Origin: Agarophyton chilense
Lineage: Eukaryota; Rhodophyta; Florideophyceae; Gracilariales; Gracilariaceae
Reading direction: 5' to 3'
Assembly (NCBI GenBank): GCA_030374765.1
Contig: JARGXX010000081.1
Span: 1 to 33,492, forward strand
Length of the DNA: 33,492 nt
Position 1 is the first letter of the stretch. Every line of letters starts with the position of its first letter. Positions 22,036 to 32,954 of the stretch are shown piece after piece. The notes under the pieces are model-generated. The model ran no database searches. It worked only from the letters and a program-made list of their open reading frames with translations, and was not told the origin of the DNA. Position numbers and translations under genes: made by a program.

Positions 22036-22480
22036 ACGTGTTCTACCACTGGGGATTTGGCTGTCTCAAGATCGAGTGGTCCATCACATGCTGTTGTTGG
22101 TGTGCAGGGATCCTCTTGTGCCGGATCAATAACTGTGGAAGAGTTTTCGAGTTCATTTGACTCAGATTCACCCGAAACTTTAACATCGACATTGTTAGAG
22201 TTGTCAAAACTGTTTAACGGGTCATCCGTGCAGTTCAGCTCAGTAAACTATACATCCCGTGACACTATTTTTTCCTTCTTATTCATATCCTACAGCTTAT
22301 ATCCGTGCCACTCGGCAGTGTTTCCGATAAAGACAGATTCCTTGGCGCGCTTCTCTAATTTCTTCAGCTTGTGGTGCACCACCTTATACCATCACTTGCT
22401 TCTAAAGACTGGCAGATTGCTGAGATCAGGCTTGCGTCCACTCCAGAGCTCAAATGGTGTTACATCGCTCGGCAATGCTT
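22036..22480 (-). pseudogene. Region after copia integrase core, truncated
   Basis: VTPFELWSGRKPDLSNL (about 22410-22465) is the copia segment that follows the integrase core, where the family has TPFELW-GKKPNLS. Further on, KIVSRDV is followed by an in-frame stop and FTELN (about 22240-22265), matching the usual SRDVxFxE segment before reverse transcriptase. The reading then becomes a Ser/Asp/Glu-rich linker and ends without any reverse transcriptase. Confidence 0.65.
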
Positions 22481-23384
22481 TGCAAGTGACTCGAGAGGGC
22501 CATGTCCATGAGTGTGCGGTTGAACCTTTCGGCGAGCATGTTCTGGTGTGGGTTGTACGGCACAGTTCGCTGATGTTCAACACCGAGATGTTCTAATTCT
22601 GCAGAAAACTTTCGAGAAAAATATTCACCATCTTTGTCTATGTGTAATGCAAGTAGCACATTCTCACCTGCGGTGACGGTTTTCACTTCTGTTCCTGTTT
22701 CGTTCTGCACGAACTTGAGCCTCTGAATAAACATCCGAAACACCTCATCTTTGGTCTTGAGCATGTAAACGTAGCAGTACCTACTGTACTCATCTATGAA
22801 TGTGACAAAATAACCCGAGCCTCCGAAGTAAGCTAGCTCCATTGAACCAGAAACGTCCGAGTAAACCACTTCGAAGAGCTTTGTTGCGCGTTGCCTCCTT
22901 GCTTGAGAGTAGGAGCGCGCGTGATTTGGTCTACTACACACCAATCGCACAAATACATATTCTGCTTCAAGTTCACATTAAGACCAGATACAAAACTGTT
23001 GCGAGCCATTTTCATGATACAATCTTCATTCACATGAGCCATTCTAGCATGCAACAGAGATAAGTCGGACGGCAGTGCGATACCTCGATGTGTGAGCTGA
23101 TCAGAAGTAGTGCGAAGGTGGTACAAACCTTTGATGCGACTGCCATGAGCAATGAATTCGGAGCCCTTGTATTCATTCACATGAAGCCTGTTAAACACAA
23201 CATGCGCTCCCATGTCCCAAAATGCTGAAACTGACAACAGGTGGTACCTTAAACCAGGTACGTGCACAACTGGGTTGAGTCTGGACATGCGCTTCGAACC
23301 ATCAACTGCGAGGTCTAGCTCAACACAGCCTTGTCCACAAGACTCAAGTTTGCAATCAATGCCAATACTAACACCGGAAGACAT
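22450..23384 (-). pseudogene. Copia integrase, zinc-binding domain and catalytic core
   Basis: The first piece (22833-23384) has the HHCC zinc-binding module: HARMAH (His-X4-His) and CDWC (Cys-X2-Cys). The second (22450-22950) holds the core. The first catalytic Asp is in VVYSDVSGSM, followed by GYFVTFIDEYSRYCYVYML; the second Asp is in HIDKDGEY and Glu is in NMLAERFNRTLMDMA. All three acidic residues are kept although a frame change separates the two pieces. Integrase would insert element cDNA into the genome. Confidence 0.85.
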
Positions 23385-23659
23385 TCTGTGTTTTCATAGG
23401 ACTGAAGCATTGATTTGTAATGAGTAATGTGTGCAATTGCGCCAGAGTCCACGATCCACTGGCTATTGGTGGCCTTGTGCAAAATGGTCGCAATGAGACA
23501 AACTAGATAGGAATCATCATCATCTTCGCCGCCCTGGTCGCAGAGTGCGGAGTGAAAACTTGTGTTAGCAGACGATTCTGGATCCTTTTTGGCCTCATCG
23601 CATTGCTTCTTGACGCAGTTTCTCCGGATATGACCCTTTTTGCCACAACAAACACGCAA
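23315..23659 (-). pseudogene. Copia zinc knuckle and protease region
   Basis: The N-terminal residues CCGKKGHIRRNC are a CCHC zinc knuckle in which the expected first Cys is replaced by Arg. About 60 residues later comes WIVDSGAIAHIT, the aspartic protease active site (DSG), as in the family's WIVDSGAS-HIT. The knuckle would bind element RNA and the protease would cut the polyprotein. The frame then runs out into non-family sequence, showing a frame change before the integrase part. Confidence 0.8.
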
Positions 23660-24294
23660 TCGACTTCCATCGCAGGTTTCTGCCTACTAAGGTGGCGTCA
23701 TTTACAGATTCGTCTTTCGTGCGATCCATTATGAGCTGCTGTTCTTGCAGAAAACGACTCTTGGCGAATTCGAGAGTGAGTGGACGGTCACATATGGTAG
23801 TATCGATTGCGACAATCAGGTGCTCAAAGCGTTCAGGCAGCCCAAACAGAATAGCTATGACAATTTCTTCCTCCTCAATGATGACGTCCATGCTTTTCAT
23901 GTCTGACGCAAAATGTCGAACACTATTGATAAACTGTAGCTTTTTCTACTCGTCACGCATCCTGGAGTTTTAGAAAGAACGTCTGGAGTTGATTCTGTTC
24001 AGTAAAGAATTGCTCTGAAACACATCGCAAATCGCCCTCTACATATATATATGCGACACTTTTGCTTTCAATGACGTGATCCAAATGATCGTCATTGAGG
24101 CTCAGTCAGATGATAGCTCTAGCGTTTTCATCGTACTTCCTCCACGTTGAAAGCTCCTCTCCGTCGGTGGGTCTCGTTGAGCTCAGATGTTCGTCAAGGT
24201 CTTTGGGCGCAAGTAACAGCTCTATTTTCTGCTTCCAAACATGGAAGTTGCCCTCACCAAGCTTTTCCATCTCCACGCCACTGAACGAGTCCAT
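23595..24294 (-). pseudogene. Copia gag region (UBN2-type), broken
   Basis: The start is the Met at 24292-24294. The N-terminal piece MDSFSGVEMEKLGEGNFHVW then WKQKIELLL is the usual copia gag opening, in which the family has a KLxGxNYxxWK-like motif. It stops at 24106. A central part with several stops links to the second piece (23595-23900), containing EEEEIVIAILFGLPERFEHL and TLEFAKSRFLQEQQ, the end of the UBN2-like domain. The gag protein packages the element RNA in cytoplasmic particles. Confidence 0.8.
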
Positions 24295-25860: not shown

Positions 25861-25867
25861 CATAGTA

Positions 25868-26073
25868 TGGGAAGCAATCGTATGCAGAGCGAGAGGGCTG
25901 TCAGTCTAATGTGTAGCATGCACTTGTAACGCGCGGTGGAACCGACGAAGATGGAACAGGCACAATTTGTCTTCCCTTGCTCCTCTCTCCTCAGTGTCTC
26001 GAGGTAGAAGAAGGGTGAAGTTCAGTATGTAGCACCGGCGGCATTGGGCCAGATGGCAATCGTGTATTGCACA
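25868..26073 (-). repeat. 3' LTR of copia element 2
   Basis: 206 bp matching 32619-32824 at about 80-85% identity by eye. Read on the minus strand it begins TG and ends CA, as LTRs do. The best-matching part is around 25930-25965 (CGCGCGGT...GAAGATGGAAC). Confidence 0.8.
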
Positions 26074-26391
26074 ACCCCCGCCTTGGCGCCATAAAAAAAG
26101 TTTTTATTTTTTGAAGTGCGGCCAAATTCTCAAGAACTCCTTTCTGACCCTAAGCGCAATATTTTTTGGCGCATCTTCCTCACGGGCCAGGTATCTCAAA
26201 TAACCCCCCATGCCTATCTTCAGCGTTTTGCGATTACCCCCATTTTTCCGTTCGAAAACCGCACACGCGCCGAAAACGCTTTATTTGCAACGTCACTGCT
26301 TCGATCTGAAAGTGTGAATTCTTGACTCGGAACTGGACGTGTCACCTCTCTTCGAAAAGTGTGGACGACTTTCGCTCAGGTGAATCCATCG
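26074..26391 (+). other. Interval between 3' LTR and accessory reading frame
   Basis: Upstream of the plus-strand accessory gene and downstream of the minus-strand pol. It contains no recognisable gene. A promoter for the accessory gene would have to lie here or in the antisense direction of the LTR. No clear TATA box was seen. The A-run at 26092-26099 and the T-rich 26100-26117 could mark the polypurine side of the LTR only loosely. Confidence 0.3.
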
Positions 26392-27739
26392 ATGGCTCGA
26401 ACTAAGCATACGGGTCGCAAATCTGTTGGCCGAAAACCCCCACCGCGCCAGCTTGCAGGCAGAGCGGCAAAAATCACAAGCGAGACATATCTTGACCAAT
26501 ACCTTAACAAGAATATTGTCAAGGTTCTCTGTTCGAAACTGCAGCGTGGCCTGAGGAAAATCTACGCAATCACATTGAAGGCAGAAACAATCTCGTGCGA
26601 TTTAGCGAAAACGAAGCGATTATTCTTCTCGGGCGCAGGATACTCATTTTATCCGGCCGTTTCGTGGCACGCAGTTTGGAGGGTTGATGATGTTCCGATT
26701 GGACCTTACAGAGGCTTTGGACGACGACGACGATCCCGATATCAGAATTGAGTACAACGATTGGATGATCGAGAAGTTATGGTATTTGGGAGGAGGTCGT
26801 GGTAAAATTAAGGACCAAATCTATGCTCTGGAGCATGTCACTAACGTAGTGTGCCGCATCGATATCCATACTTTCCGAATCGAGTACAGTCAGGCAGTTG
26901 GAGGCGGTGCGTCGAGAAGTAGGGTGACGTATAATGAGGAAGGCGCAGAAGAAACCATCTATTTGGGAGTTAAGGACCGTTATGAAGCGACCAAGAGCAT
27001 TTAGGCTACTTGCAACGCAAAGCCAGGTCAAAGGCCCACCGTGTTTCAACCCGAAGCGCAGATGCCGTCGTCGGGCGTCCGATGTTTCCATCTCCTTCAT
27101 ACGTCCGTGCAGTTTCGCGACGAGACGTTTCTGTGCCTTAAAGCTTCTCTAAGTATTGCATTAGCTCTCCCCATTAGGTCCGAGAAGGCTGCTCAGTGTT
27201 GGGCGTATCTCGTCGATCGTGTTACGAAAAACGCAGAAGATAATGAGATGTACTTGAACGCCGTTGCAGGTCTTGGGTTTAGTGATATTCTTGAGCTTGA
27301 CTATTGGAACCGGAAGGGGCGAGGGGAGGTCCGAGGGAAGTTTCGTGATCTCAAGGATATGCAGAGATTTGTTCGGGAAAAGACGCGTGTCATTATCCTC
27401 CATTACCTTCGTGATGGGAATGAACACCGAGAAGAAAAATTAGATTTGTGGAACTTCCGCGATAGTGGAAACGTCTTCCTTGTCAGTCTTCAGGCCATTG
27501 ACGGGGACCTGCCTGCGATTTGCATAGATGGGGAGCGCAACATGATTATTGATCCAGTGGACAAGTGTCACATGGATCTCATGCAGGTTGCTCTCGAGTC
27601 CTGTGTTGGATCAGACCGTTCTTCCAGTCATATTGTAGACTGTCGCGTATTGCGTTTGCTCCCAGGGAGGAAGAATGGGAAACGGGCTCGCCGCGGGAAG
27701 ATACATCGTCACCAAGAAGGTTCTTCAAACAGAGTTTGA
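26392..27739 (+). pseudogene. Antisense accessory gene with histone H3 tail-like N-terminus
   Basis: Function unknown. The ATG at 26392 is preferred over the in-frame ATG at 26359 because it places ARTKHTGRKS directly after Met. Residues 1-25 match the histone H3 tail at 16 positions, keeping K4, R8, K9, S10, K14, P16 and QLA(19-21), with Arg for K18 and K23. No histone fold follows. After about 26600 the reading shifts to another frame, which stays open from 26606 to 27739 apart from one stop at 27002-27004. This part has an acidic run (DDDDDPDIRIEY), a conserved-looking YNDWMIEKLWYLGGG, and near the end CLKASLSIALAL and GDLPAICIDGERNMIIDPVD, which recall the Cys and His/Asp regions of papain-like peptidases. 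The gene lies tail to tail with pol inside the element. Confidence 0.55.
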
Positions 27740-27779
27740 AATCTTTTCTATAGTAGATCCTAACCCTTAGGGTTCCATG

Positions 27780-28200
27780 CCTTAAGATGGTGGCCCATAG
27801 TAGATATGATAAATTTGCTTAGTATGGCTTGAAATATATCTTGGTTCGATTGAGTAAATGAATGATGATTGCCCTTTGTCAACACGTTGGCTTAGTGCAG
27901 ACTTCCTGTTCTCCAACGCATCGAGGATATGTCTCCAGTTTTAAAGGAGTCACGGAGGCGCGACAGCGTGGGGCGCAATCAGTAGTCTCGGCATTCGTGA
28001 AGGGTGGTAATTGTTGAGTATAAACCAAATGCGTCCACGTAAAGGGCGAGCGAACGAAAACCCGATGCAAGAACTTCAATGCATTTCTTAATTAGTATGG
28101 ATCTGTCTGCGGCTTCTGTTGCCGCAAGAATTTCGGCACCAATTGAACTAAAAGATATGCGTCTTTTCTTCAAGCTATGCCAGTCGACGATGTGATATGA
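27780..28200 (-). pseudogene. Copia RNase H domain, broken
   Basis: SSIGAEILAATEAADRSILI (about 28095-28155) is the hallmark copia RNase H segment carrying a catalytic Glu, followed by LALYVDAFGLY with Asp. In another frame LRDSFKTGDISSMRW and ANVLTKGNHHSF follow, the latter being the family's terminal A-x-x-LTK motif, at about 27850-27890. RNase H removes RNA from the cDNA hybrid. A stop precedes ANVLTK and at least one frame change is needed, so it is inactive. Pol ends here, close to the end of the convergent accessory gene. Confidence 0.75.
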
Positions 28201-28379
28201 AACGTTTTCACCTTTGGAGAAGGGGATGCCACTAATATAGCCTGTTTGATCGTAGGATGATTTCCAGTGCTGGCTTCAGAGATCGTCACTATGTGGCAAA
28301 CGTTCATGTTATCTTATACGATCGCAGATCTCGGAGCCATGTACTCAAGGACCGGGACGGAGCTTTAGGACGAGGTTGA

Positions 28380-29297
28380 GGATCTAGTTTTCCTTCAAAA
28401 GATGCTTCATGCCCATCTCTGCGACCAGCTGCTGCATGAAACTAGAAGGGTACGCGGCTTGAAGCAGCACACCATGGCCGAAGTAGTTGAGTTTTCCAGC
28501 AAGAGACTGGGTATCTCGGACATCTTCTTGGGTGCATGGATCCTCTGACTGTTTCCTCCGATCCCTCGAGATTGGAATGGGAGCGAGCTTTTACATAAAC
28601 TCTGCCATGTAGATCTCAATCGAGAAGTCTTAATATGCCGAATCCAAAGGCGGCTAAAGATAATCTCGTTCTTGAAGATGGCTTTGCCGACCTTGAAGTG
28701 AGCTGAGAGAGCCTCGGAGAATGTTTTAATCTCACTCTTTTATCCGGCAAGGAGAAGATCGTCCACCAATTTGGCCAGGTGTAGAGAAATATGCCCGTGG
28801 TTGTTCGACAATAGAAACATCTCTGGCATGCCAGGGACAGTAAGAAATTCGTACTCGCATAGCCATCGCTCGATGCAAAGCTGCCAAGAACGACTGGACT
28901 CTACGAGGCCATTCGCAGACTTGAGTAGCTTCCATACTTCGTCTACAAACTGTTCCCATCCCTTTGGAGGCCGCATGTATATATCTCGTTTGAGGTCGCC
29001 TCATTGCAAATACGCTCTAGAGAGATCAATGTTTACAAGGTAGAGGTGTAGTAAAGTTGCAAGGGAAAGCAGAAGTCTGCTGCAGGTAAATTGAGCCGTA
29101 GAGGAGTCAGATCGAATGTTATCTTTTTGGGAATCTCGATTCCTATGGGGTTCCAGTCAGCACTTGAGCTTAAGCTTACCACTCTCCCCATCGAACTTCG
29201 TCACGAAGAAGTGGTGGGAGGAGATAATATTTGCATTTCGCGGGAGTCCTTTGATGGAGACTGGCTTGTATGCCTTGGCATCAGAGTAGTTTCTTTT
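28380..29297 (-). pseudogene. Copia reverse transcriptase, broken
   Basis: The start region has AKAYKPVSIKGLPRNANIIS and HHFFVTKFDGESGKLKLK. A stop follows at the conserved Arg position, then NIDLSRAYLQ with the first catalytic Asp (about 29010-29040), another stop, then DIYMRPPKGWEQFVDEVWKL, KSANGLVESSRSW, and LAKLVDDLLLAG (28740-28976) with the DD pair of the YVDD box. The connection part GKLNYFGHGVLLQAAYPSSF lies at about 28430-28490. It copies element RNA into cDNA in cytoplasmic particles. Two or more stops make it inactive. The box reads LVDD rather than YVDD. Confidence 0.82.
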
Positions 29298-30593
29298 CTA
29301 TGCTTCGATGGCCTTGTCGGTTATCCATGGTGGGGCAAACTGGAGCTTGGCTTCTGTGGCTGGCTGGTCTACAATGAACTTCTTGATCTGCTCAAGAATT
29401 CTTTTCACCGAAGACAATAGATTTTCGCCTAGGGTAGGGAACCTAAGCGAGGTGTCACCAACACCTCTGCAGAGTTGCAGGTTTCTGACATCCATTGAGG
29501 GTGCAATCATAGCAGTTTTGTCTTCTTTGGACGCAAACACGGATAAAGAGAACGGATGCATAGACCAAAAGTTTGGTTCGTCCGATATGTTTAGGTCGAA
29601 ACTTAAAGGGTCTTGTGTGTTTTTCTCAGGGAAGTCTGTGACTTCTTCATCCTGGAGAGGCGGAAGAGAAGAACAATCGGAATAATTCCTTTCTTCAGGG
29701 ACTGCGATTGGTTCTTCTTGTGCGTTGGTGTCCGCGAAGAACGAGTATCCAAGCTCCTGTTTGCCCAGTTTTTGTAAAAGAAATGAACGCGGGACTAACC
29801 TTATGTCTTCGTAGGCGATCTGATGCTTTGGTCCCTGGAGGTTTTTTCTAGGAGAGACCGACCTTATATGGTCAGTAGTAGTGACCACAAATTTCTTGTG
29901 CCAGGCACCATGTTTTCCGACTCTCTTGAAGACATATACCTGATTCTTTGGTACCAGAAGGTGTTGTGATAAAGGGTACGATGGCCTGATACGAAGAAGG
30001 GTGTGTACGGCACGCCTGGAAAGTTGTTCGCTGTAGAAAGCAAGGAGCTTCTCTGGTAGCATCTGCTTGGGTACCCCAAAAACAGAAGGAGTGTAGCAGT
30101 GAACAAGCTCGACGATGCTGAGTGACTTGTTACCATACACCAAATTCTTAAGGAATGTGGCTTTTAAGAGGTTCCCTGATTCCGTGCGATACACTTGACG
30201 AGTTTTCCTCAGATGAGGTTCGTCGAGAAGGAACGTTTGGACAAATATACGGATGGTCTCGTTGCTCGATTGGACGCTTCCAATTTTGTTTTGGCGTCGA
30301 GCAGGCCACGGTTCGAATGATATCTGATTCTCGCCACCCAATCGCTGAATTGAGACGTTATCGAACTCTGAGTCTCCTGGTAACTTTGATGGAGGCCCAA
30401 AGACATAAAAAAAGTGAACCACAATCATGTGAGCGGTATCAGTCATATCCTTTAAAGTCAATAAGACATTAACGGAGAGACCGGTTGATAAATCGTTTAT
30501 ATGCAGAATGGGGAGCTTTCGAAACTCGCGTATGAATAGGAAATCAACTTGAGGGTGCTCGTTGTACTCATCCATTATTTTCTTGAGTGACAT
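29298..30593 (-). pseudogene. Copia integrase core and linker, catalytic Glu changed
   Basis: A 431-codon open frame. Residues about 25-120 are the integrase core: first Asp in ILHINDLSTG (D34), HFFYVFGPPSKLPGDSEFDN with the second Asp (D74), and PARRQNKIGSVQSSNETIR, in which the usual catalytic Glu of GSVExSN is Gln (Q108; codon CAA, one base from GAA). Then RQVYRTES...FLKNLVYGNKSLS is the typical post-core segment, followed by a variable linker (VYVFKRVGKHGAWHKKFVV and a Pro/Glu/Asp-rich part) leading toward reverse transcriptase. The zinc-binding domain was not found upstream in frame. Integrase acts in the nucleus to join cDNA ends to host DNA. The Glu-to-Gln change alone should abolish catalysis. 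Confidence 0.75.
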
Positions 30594-30708
30594 CTTTCGA
30601 GAATGTAGTAGGCGGTTAGACCTTTTGCATGAAGGGCAAGATTGTAGGCCTCTTCGAGCTCACCAGCAAGTGTTCGATTTAGAATCCCACCTCGACTGCA
30701 AAGCTTTT

Positions 30709-31335
30709 TCATGTCCTTGGCGGAGAGATGGGACTGAAAGTGAAGCTTTTTGGCGAAACGACGGGCATGGGTTCGATCGCTTGATCCATGCCGTCCTTGC
30801 CAGATAGTTTGGCGATCGGATGAGAAATCGTACAGAGAAAGGAAGAATGAGAATAAACGAAGGATTTGAACGAAGGTTTTATCGAAGGAAGGACAAATAA
30901 GTGTGTTTGGCGGTCAATGTCTTCTCTTAGGACGTATATTGACAGAACTGCGTCATCCCGAAAGATTCCGACCGAAACGGGCACTACATGCGTTTTGTCC
31001 GAAGTCATGAGGTCCGAACGTGACACTATGTCGTTCCCAAGTAGCAAAGGACCGTCGCCTTCCGTAATGTAGAACTTAATGTCTGATTCCACATCGTTGA
31101 GTCCTTTGATCTTCAACACCCAAGTTCCAAATATCAGTTTTGGATATGAACATTCTCGATCATCATCGTGATATAAGGAGTCATAGTCAAGGTCTTCAAC
31201 GTGAAATTGGATGCCAATTGCGATTGATAGAGCAGCGGCAGAGTCAATGCTTCGCACAATATGGGGACAACAAATGTCAATGAAGGGGTTAGGATCTCGC
31301 GTACCACTAACCACATCAGAAGGAGCCCCAACCAA
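30709..31335 (-). pseudogene. Probable copia protease region
   Basis: A 208-codon open frame between gag and integrase, the position of the aspartic protease. VGAPSDVVSGT at the N-terminus resembles the DTGAPxSVVG active-site box but lacks the Asp-Thr pair. GDGPLLLGNDIVSRSDL at about residues 92-108 is like the second conserved block of such proteases (PLLLGLDxL). The rest is not recognised. The missing Asp suggests an inactive enzyme. Confidence 0.5.
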
Positions 31336-31340
31336 TGACT

Positions 31341-32408
31341 TTAGCCATGATTGCGCTTCGATGGGGCAGCGCCTGGCGTAAATTGAGCGTTAAACCCACG
31401 ATTTCGTTTTCTGGAGGAATCTTTCCTCGGGTTTCTTCCTCCACGACGAGGAACTGTGGACCTACCGTCTAAGTCGTTGCTCGATATCACCACAATCGAA
31501 ACAGAAAGACGACTTTCCATCTTTCCCGGCTTAAGATCGGTGCGTTTCCTCTTGCCATTGCCCGGTTTGAAAGACACGGTTGATGCATTTCCCTCTTTCC
31601 TATTTCCCAAGCGTGTTAGTACGCTCTCGTTGGATTGGAAAATTGCAAATAAGGCAGTTTGGACTTTCTGAACCACGATGTTTTCAAGGTCCTCCCTTAT
31701 ATAGTGAGCAGTAGAGCTCGAAGAGGTAAAAGAAAGACTCCATATGACTGTAACGGCGTCATCCAGGTTTAGATGGCATCTGCGGGAAGGATGAATTAGC
31801 TTGTTGATAGAAGGAGTTGGGCTAGTCTTTGAGTGAGTGTCTGTAAGATTACCCTCGAACTCAACGACCACTTCATTGATCTTTCTCTCGGTTACGAAAA
31901 GCTTTACCTTTGTCGTATTGTGATTATTGCTCCTCGAAATCTTAAGGTGAGGCCTCCACAGCATTTCACGAAGGTGAATTACGGACTCCTGAAACTTCAA
32001 AAGATTGATGTGGTACTGGGTATCCCCAGCATAACTTCCACTTCTCATACGAGTTTCGGCGAGAGAGATTGGTTGTAGTTTGGCATTGGTCAACGTCTCC
32101 TCACACAAAGATGCGTTGTTGAGTAGCGTTATTGCCAGAACATCTCCAACCTTAGATGAGAATGATAGTCCACCATGCACGAGATGCTCGGCTGCCAAGC
32201 CGCCGAAACGTGATACGAAGCTAGCCACAGGCTCGACCTTGCGACGACAGCAGTTTGTAACACGATTGAAAGAAGAAACCAAAAAAGAAACAACAGCAAT
32301 CGGATGGTCGACTTCAACAAGTTTACCATTTTTGCCTACCGCTTTGACTTGGTCCTCTTGCTTGTAATGAACAACTCCTTTTTCCTGGGCTTCGTCGCCA
32401 TTGAACAC
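31341..32408 (-). CDS. Copia gag-like protein, open frame of 355 codons
   Basis: First gene of the element, about 200 bases inside the 5' LTR, with start Met at 32408. The middle part has ASFVSRFGGLAAEHL, typical of gag proteins in this type of element, and LRE/LREMLWRPH. Toward the C-terminus the sequence becomes basic (KPGNGKRKR, RRGGRNPRKDSSRKRNR), fitting RNA binding. A zinc-knuckle-like FCFDCGD is readable near 31490-31505, but in another frame, so the end of the protein has probably been shifted by an indel. Gag forms the particles in which reverse transcription occurs. The frame is open, but the element as a whole is dead, and this one may also be altered at its C-terminus. Confidence 0.6.
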   Translation of the reverse strand: MFNGDEAQEKGVVHYKQEDQVKAVGKNGKLVEVDHPIAVVSFLVSSFNRVTNCCRRKVEPVASFVSRFGGLAAEHLVHGGLSFSSKVGDVLAITLLNNASLCEETLTNAKLQPISLAETRMRSGSYAGDTQYHINLLKFQESVIHLREMLWRPHLKISRSNNHNTTKVKLFVTERKINEVVVEFEGNLTDTHSKTSPTPSINKLIHPSRRCHLNLDDAVTVIWSLSFTSSSSTAHYIREDLENIVVQKVQTALFAIFQSNESVLTRLGNRKEGNASTVSFKPGNGKRKRTDLKPGKMESRLSVSIVVISSNDLDGRSTVPRRGGRNPRKDSSRKRNRGFNAQFTPGAAPSKRNHG

Positions 32409-32618
32409 CAGGTAAAGCTCTGTCGTACAGCCGTAGACCTAGAGTTGCAAAGATTGTTGGGTAACATCGATCGGTGCCCTTCTTGGCAGCACTATAAATA
32501 ATATCTACACATCCACAAACGTTGCGATGACAGTCTTGTAGATCCTTGGTAGGGTCAATCTTTTTGGTGTCTCTCGGATTGAAAGATATAACAGCTCATG
32601 AAGCTGGGTCCATAGCTA
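32409..32618 (-). promoter_or_regulatory. 5' leader of copia element 2 with probable primer-binding site
   Basis: Between the 5' LTR and the gag start. On the minus strand TGGACCCAGCTTC starts at 32612, a few bases after the LTR end. It has the TGG start expected for a site complementary to a tRNA ending in CCA. The tRNA species cannot be named. Confidence 0.5.
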
Positions 32619-32824
32619 TGGGAAACAGTCGTACGCAGAGCAAGAGGTCTGCCGGTCTAATTTCTACTATGCGCTTGAAACGCGCGGTAGAACCGAGGAA
32701 GATGGAACGGGCACAAGGTGCCCCCTCTTGCTCCTCTGTCTACAGTTTTTTGAGGTGGAGCAAGGGTGTGGCTTAGTATGCAGCGCCGGTGGCATTGAGC
32801 CAGGTGGCAATCATGTGTTACACA
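32619..32824 (-). repeat. 5' LTR of copia element 2
   Basis: Partner of 25868-26073. Begins TG and ends CA on the minus strand. Element transcription would start in this LTR. Confidence 0.8.
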
Positions 32825-32954
32825 CATACAGCCTGTACTATATATTCAACATAAGATCTCGAAAGCGTGGACACGTGTATACGGCAGACTCCTACTACCT
32901 TCCCACCAACTACAGTGACAGCACTTATCAATCACACGATATCCAACAATAACG

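Follow-up and report, generated by a model that had tools for sequence, protein, structure and literature searches.

An antisense open reading frame in a Copia-type retrotransposon family of Agarophyton chilense begins with a histone H3-like tail

A 33,492-nucleotide stretch of contig JARGXX010000081.1 from the red alga Agarophyton chilense (hereafter the window, meaning the whole stretch of DNA that was analysed) contains an open reading frame (ORF) that begins at position 26392 of the plus strand with MARTKHTGRKSVGRKPPPRQLAGRAA (translation of 26392-26469). Why should an ORF within a retrotransposon begin like histone H3, and what could the likeness have meant to the element that carried it? 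In a position-by-position comparison, this tail is in register with H3 and identical to it at 16 of residues 1-25, including K4, R8, K9, S10, K14 and Q19-L20-A21, while R stands at positions 18 and 23 and K at position 26. The initial annotation of this DNA had claimed just these identities and substitutions, and all of them are borne out. Chance can be ruled out as the source of the likeness, because the runner-up among all Met-started 26-mers in the six frames of the window has 7 H3 identities, and when the residues of the tail were shuffled 200,000 times the maximum was 13, as compared to 16 observed. A phmmer search matched the window tail to 125 distinct PDB sequences at E ≤ 10 (best E 0.0057), the best 60 of which are all H3 or H3-like, including Cse4 and H3/CENP-A chimaeras. 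With the tail of a less decayed copy (L010), 129 sequences were matched at E ≤ 0.01 (best 1.1e-6), and the best 60 of these are H3 or H3-like throughout. At E ≤ 1, neither the tail piece nor the middle piece of the window ORF matched any Pfam family, and the Pfam search with its C-terminal piece returned no histone match. The further claim of a tail without a histone core is therefore upheld, as the likeness stops after residue 26 and Pfam finds no histone domain in the ORF.

The same annotation had placed the ORF inside a retrotransposon. This is correct, the carrier being a Copia-type element (Table 1), but leaves out that the ORF is located between pol and the 3' LTR, in antisense to gag-pol. 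The window element, whose own reverse transcriptase is broken, is typed as Copia because of its DNA identity to L085, the whole element around the L007 copy. L085 has a reverse-transcriptase match of the Ty1/Copia type (RVT_2, PF07727, at L085:2131-3561:-, E=1.6e-23), LTRs that are 94.8% identical and the target-site duplication GTAAT on both sides; such an LTR pair with a 5-bp duplication is that of a Ty1/Copia element, the duplication of the window element agreeing at 4 of 5 positions. The tail ORF of L085 lies on the plus strand between the minus-strand pol and the 3' LTR, so that the two genes stand tail to tail. An integrase placed before the reverse transcriptase would fit the order as judged by eye, although neither window 29298-30593 nor L085:3565-4896 gave an integrase Pfam match. 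At this putative integrase position, residues 253-295 of L085:3565-4896:- resemble a Tudor domain below the Pfam threshold (PF18336, E 0.00085, 19.7 bits where 25.9 are required), and this stretch may be the integrase C-terminal fold.

Table 1. Positions of the element, its parts and the antisense ORF in the window
Feature	Position	Strand	Remarks
H3-tail-like N-terminus, decayed copy	26392..26469	+	26 codons; translation, H3 comparison, PDB matches
First open piece of antisense ORF (tail and next region, before frame change)	26392..26751	+	
Middle piece of antisense ORF	26606..27004	+	another frame; acidic DDDDDPD stretch; stop at 27002-27004
C-terminal piece of antisense ORF	27005..27739	+	244 aa open; FLCLKASLS, AICIDG and IIDP motif region; basic C-terminus
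Copia-type LTR retrotransposon with tail ORF	25866..32824	- (gag-pol)	86% DNA identity to L085
3' LTR	25866..26073	-	208 bp
5' LTR	32617..32824	-	208 bp; LTR pair 79.6% identical in local alignment
Left target-site duplication, CATAG	25861..25865	.	4/5 match to right one
Right target-site duplication, CATAC	32825..32829	.	
Gag-position open piece	31344..32438	-	position and homology to L085; no Pfam match
Open piece, protease position of pol	30709..31389	-	order and by eye; no Pfam match
Open pol piece, integrase position	29298..30659	-	matches Copia elements in genome; no Pfam match
Broken reverse-transcriptase region (approximate limits)	28400..29300	-	homologous to L085 RVT_2

A host gene family outside any transposon was considered and rejected, as the element edges and pol recur across copies. 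The left edge of homology falls at 25862-25869 in 18 of the 20 other non-duplicate insertions, the exceptions being L030 and the rearranged L008, and in 15 of the 20 the homology reaches beyond 28,000 into pol. Five insertions are exceptions on the right: L025, L027 and L028 end earlier, and in L009 and L017 the gene is interrupted or succeeded by a Gypsy element. ORF and pol matches on opposite strands within 3 kb were seen by eye at more than 20 non-duplicate places. The position between pol and the 3' LTR, the antisense orientation and the retention in most copies are those of the antisense ORFs called aORF-3R in plants.

Several other features of these loci were recorded. At L043 3366-9901 (L009) and at L046 3448-9846 (L017), the tail gene is abutted or cut by one and the same Gypsy element, whose orientation agrees between the two loci; this is either coincidence or targeting. 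In the rearranged L008, a gag piece and the tail gene share one strand, with one open frame just before the tail. Elsewhere in the window, a DDE_Tnp_4 transposase fragment occupies 2238-2948 (-; PF13359, E 4.7e-6), and a second retroelement at 22450-23900 (-) adjoins the tail element and contains an rve integrase fragment at 22450-22950 (PF00665, PF13683).

Within its family the window copy is old, and its frame is broken by a change after about 26600 and a stop at 27002-27004. Alignment of L009 and L015 gives an estimated full protein of about 450 residues, arranged as H3 tail, acidic stretch, C-terminal domain and basic end. No intact ORF was found among the copies read, and the longest open frame from the tail Met has 377 codons (L009). 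Across 15 copies, the ORF frame contains 7.0 stops per 1000 codons, versus 15.5-72.2 in the other five frames. The nearest in-frame upstream stop lies 23 codons before the start in 21 of the 35 copies with a readable tail, and in 27 of the 35 the Met of MARTK is the first in-frame ATG in the stretch examined. Since the start codon is the first in frame in most copies, removal of the Met would expose ARTKQTARKS as in H3, and the H3-tail sequence would then stand at an exposed N-terminus, as it does in a histone mimic. The antisense position, the large C-terminal domain and the related antisense ORFs without an H3 tail described below go beyond the initial annotation.

A search of the source genome (79.8 Mb, 135 contigs) with the first 100 codons of the tail ORF gave 52 matches. 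The gene start was inspected at 45 loci and in the window; the match C128:730553 lies outside this set, and the plus-strand match C21:374885 has no entry of its own in the analysis. Window duplicates and one contig-end copy (L002-L006) were excluded, the non-duplicate set comprising 41 copies with the window included; L048, L058-L061 and L065 are omitted from the tail counts. L044 and L045 represent duplicated segments or haplotigs, as opposed to insertions of their own, because their identity to the window (99.6% and 99.9% over 9.9 kb) continues outside the element. Whether other copies of the element have the tail had been set beforehand as one test that could refute the original claim, and the claim passed it: the tail is readable in 35 of the 41 copies. 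Five of the remaining six retain cut, frame-shifted or weak remnants by eye (weak ones in L058 and L061), and no remnant was found by eye in L065.

Each of the 35 copies has between 12 and 21 residues in common with H3 1-26, the number being 16 in the window, 20 in five copies and 21 in L009, L017 and L025; the likeness is strongest in the less decayed copies. The H3 residue occurs in at least 23 copies at positions 1-10, 12, 14, 16, 19-21 and 23-26. For example, K4 and Q5 are kept in 31 copies each, R8 and K9 in 29 each, S10 in 26, K14 in 23, Q19, K23 and A25 in 30 each, and A21 in 28. Positions 13 and 17 keep it in 17 and 19 copies, respectively, and mostly non-H3 residues are found at positions 11 (H3 residue in 3 of 35), 15 (12 of 35), 18 and 22 (0 of 35 each). 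The likeness stops at R26; K27 of H3 is absent from the family, and 29 of the 35 copies have none of the five H3 residues at positions 27-31.

A check for purifying selection on the tail had also been proposed at the outset. We compared majority states (at least 70%) between subfamily A (11 copies) and subfamily B (8 copies), averaging codons with several changes over paths; 292 codons were usable within codons 1-375, and 23 within the tail. Codons 1-375 differ by 28.5 nonsynonymous and 58.5 synonymous changes, against a neutral ratio of 2.64 (P 6e-15), and the differences fall 19, 12 and 56 times on the first, second and third codon positions. An upstream non-coding control gave 18.5 and 8.5 against a neutral 2.37, that is, it was neutral-like. 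Purifying selection on the antisense ORF is thus firmly established, P being 4e-9 for the whole ORF even at an 80% majority cut. The tail points in the same direction on 7 changes in all, 1.5 nonsynonymous and 5.5 synonymous (codon positions 1, 1 and 5; P 0.03 with the nonsynonymous count rounded up to 2). Its figures are unchanged at a 60% cut and become 1.5 and 3.5 at an 80% cut (P 0.17), while comparisons with the heterogeneous group C, which offers few sites, gave 1 and 2 for the tail in both cases. Selection on the tail by itself is therefore likely though weakly shown; that diverged copies have for so long kept about 20 H3 residues is a further point in its favor. A reference-anchored count with another rule for multi-change codons, which over-counts synonymous changes, gave 1/6 for the tail and 24/63 for the ORF. 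A cruder count, on whole-length MAFFT columns with variants in at least 3 copies, suffers from misalignment where cut copies end, and the tail signal in it was weak (22 synonymous, 40 nonsynonymous, neutral ratio 2.25). The tree was used solely for picking subfamilies, its long branches reflecting the same alignment artefact.

The remaining outcome named as counting against the claim was a recent insertion of a true H3 gene fragment. Compared with the three host H3 genes tested, the window tail is at best 64.9% identical in DNA and the L043 tail (L009 copy) 70.1%, each over 77 bp; identities of 65-70% are too low for a recent insertion of host H3 DNA, which is therefore ruled out. Such values would fit an old capture from H3. 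Convergence appears unlikely, because the exact H3 register is kept over 26 residues. A separate repeat (L037, L038, L039 and L041, on C113, C7, C77 and C31; copies 86-90% identical over 1.5-3 kb) contains a host H3 gene fragment in degraded form, together with its 5' flank, 70-85% identical in pieces to L031, and shows no apparent relation to the tail family. Two divergent host H3 variants, L034 and L035, were recognized by eye; in one of them the ARTKQTARKS start may be separated by an intron, and one is CENH3-like with a long Ser/Thr/Pro-rich N-terminus.

Our preferred reading, to which we give close to an even chance, is that the antisense accessory protein was an H3-tail mimic that engaged host readers or modifiers of the H3 tail, most plausibly against silencing. 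The window would thus hold a dead Copia-type copy, whose living ancestors would have made, from the strand opposite gag-pol, an accessory protein consisting of a captured H3 tail (residues 1-26) fused to an unrelated body. Once translated, present in the nucleus and freed of its Met, the tail could become a ligand or substrate of the host proteins that act on H3K4, H3R8-K9-S10 and K14-K23. The mimic might then pull those factors to or from element chromatin, most plausibly weakening silencing to the element's benefit. A fuller version, which we put forward more tentatively, is that the retrotransposon lineage captured the tail and selection kept it as an exposed N-terminus, a free-standing decoy that would compete with nucleosomes for K4/K9 silencing readers and writers, and that the body, common to other antisense ORFs, would work at the element. 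Against an H3-tail mimic stand the lack of any protein of the tail family at E ≤ 10 in the protein database, the lack of an intact copy among those read, the fading of the tail-only signal at the 80% cut and its weakness in the cruder count, the absence of K27, and the weak H3 likeness of the sister family with the latest apparent activity, whose one EukProt match leaves the N-terminus uncovered.

That sister family also bears on the main rival, which we regard as rather unlikely. Here the tail would be a basic peptide for nuclear import or nucleic-acid binding, the H3 likeness being inherited and unread by chromatin enzymes, and the protein would be nuclear and DNA-associated in the manner of other accessory proteins that LTR elements encode in antisense. 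Many relatives of the C-terminal domain exist in the genome, some of them in long open frames with other N-termini. One is L067 (C92:376215-377486), an intact sister antisense ORF of 424 aa, whose Arg-rich N-terminus, MAVTRQRVRAQRTRRVPRSHVRG, lacks the H3 tail, as the basic-peptide alternative would have it. With 8 of 26 H3 identities (shuffle frequency 0.0015), it is possibly a faded common H3 tail, and a distant broken relative, L073, retains TVTKQTACASVGGRALRRQ. Near-identical copies of L067 occur on C3, C4 and C135, and 276-codon frames of the family on C96, C88, C77, C100 and C71 have one internal deletion common to all five; the family has apparently been amplified recently, and of the sister families it looks the latest to be active. 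The EukProt protein P0002 is 98% identical to L067 over 94% of its length and starts 25 residues in, so that the L067 N-terminus lies outside it. Sister antisense ORFs, as distinct from the tail family, are probably transcribed, because the name of this protein looks transcript-derived, being in what we take to be the style of a transcript-assembly accession. Word-based searches found no relatives of the tail protein at E ≤ 10 among 5.8 billion proteins, none of it in IMG/VR, and none of the pol piece in the protein database. A basic peptide would also suit the basic C-terminus of the tail protein, and PMC7264820 and PMC11963269 report nuclear location or predicted DNA binding for antisense accessory proteins of plants. 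However, uncharged H3 positions (A1 in 31 of the 35 copies, T3 and G12 in 28 each, and Q5, Q19, A21 and A25 as given above) are kept about as often as K and R, which argues against the basic-peptide rival and in favor of the H3-tail mimic.

The other alternatives fare less well. One is that the tail serves in integration or tethering, H3-tail readers leading the protein and integrase complexes to particular host chromatin. Chromatin-guided integration of LTR elements is well established and lends this idea some appeal, but the antisense position of the ORF would make the tail protein separate from integrase, and we consider it improbable. Still harder to credit is bait and cut, in which a papain-like thiol protease, the C-terminal domain, would cleave H3-tail binders recruited by the tail, or the tail would be a pseudo-substrate of an H3-clipping enzyme. 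In the alignment of distant families, most of them, though not every member, show a Cys in CLxASLxNA, a His in (D/L)HxxxVD and an Asp in I(I/L)D, a pattern that may be like that of papain-like thiol proteases. On the other hand, Tyr replaces the motif Cys in L083, the domain has no Pfam, NCBIfam or PDB profile match, and single-sequence structure prediction of the window C-terminal piece alone gave a pLDDT of 34. Least probable is an ordinary relic, an H3 gene fragment that hitch-hiked in a decayed repeat and never had a function: none of the copies read is intact, tail-only selection amounts to 7 changes and another repeat does bear a degraded H3 fragment, but the codon-position bias, the nonsynonymous deficit over the ORF, the scarcity of stops in the ORF frame and the low DNA identity to host H3 all speak against it.

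There are precedents both for antisense accessory ORFs and for short histone mimics in viruses. Plant LTR retrotransposons contain antisense ORFs between pol and the 3' LTR (aORF-3R), for example Grande gene23, RIRE2, Retand ORF4 and PvRetro13 (PMC7264820, PMC11963269), whose role is described as not determined in the available part of PMC7264820. The tail ORF resembles them in its place between pol and the 3' LTR, its orientation and its retention across copies, and, as with them, a nuclear role is suspected. Unlike the plant examples given in those parts, its element is of the Copia type and its protein starts with an H3 tail. H3 and CENH3 share tail residues 1-26 with the tail protein, which has no histone fold and an unrelated body. 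Accessory transposon genes that counter, or are thought to counter, epigenetic silencing include VANC of the Arabidopsis VANDAL elements, an anti-silencing protein (PMC10398659, PMC5735166), and the gene of KIU/Ulp1 elements (PMC13317346), and the role proposed here would be like theirs. VANCs are described as sequence-specific, and the carriers of VANC and KIU/Ulp1 are DNA transposons without a histone tail. The open-licence literature matches listed include no report of an H3 tail in a transposon, and the words 'transpos' and 'ARTK' are absent from the main text of a review of histone mimics (PMC10208167). The viral mimics treated there, such as influenza NS1 (ARSK) and SARS-CoV-2 ORF8 (ARKS), likewise are parasite proteins bearing an H3-tail sequence. 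Theirs are short motifs, whereas the tail protein follows the H3 register exactly over about 26 residues, at its N-terminus and in a retrotransposon. An H3-tail mimic on an antisense accessory protein would offer a direct handle, namely which H3 readers and writers bind it, and, if the reading is true, histone mimicry would extend from short viral motifs to a nearly whole tail in a genome-resident parasite.
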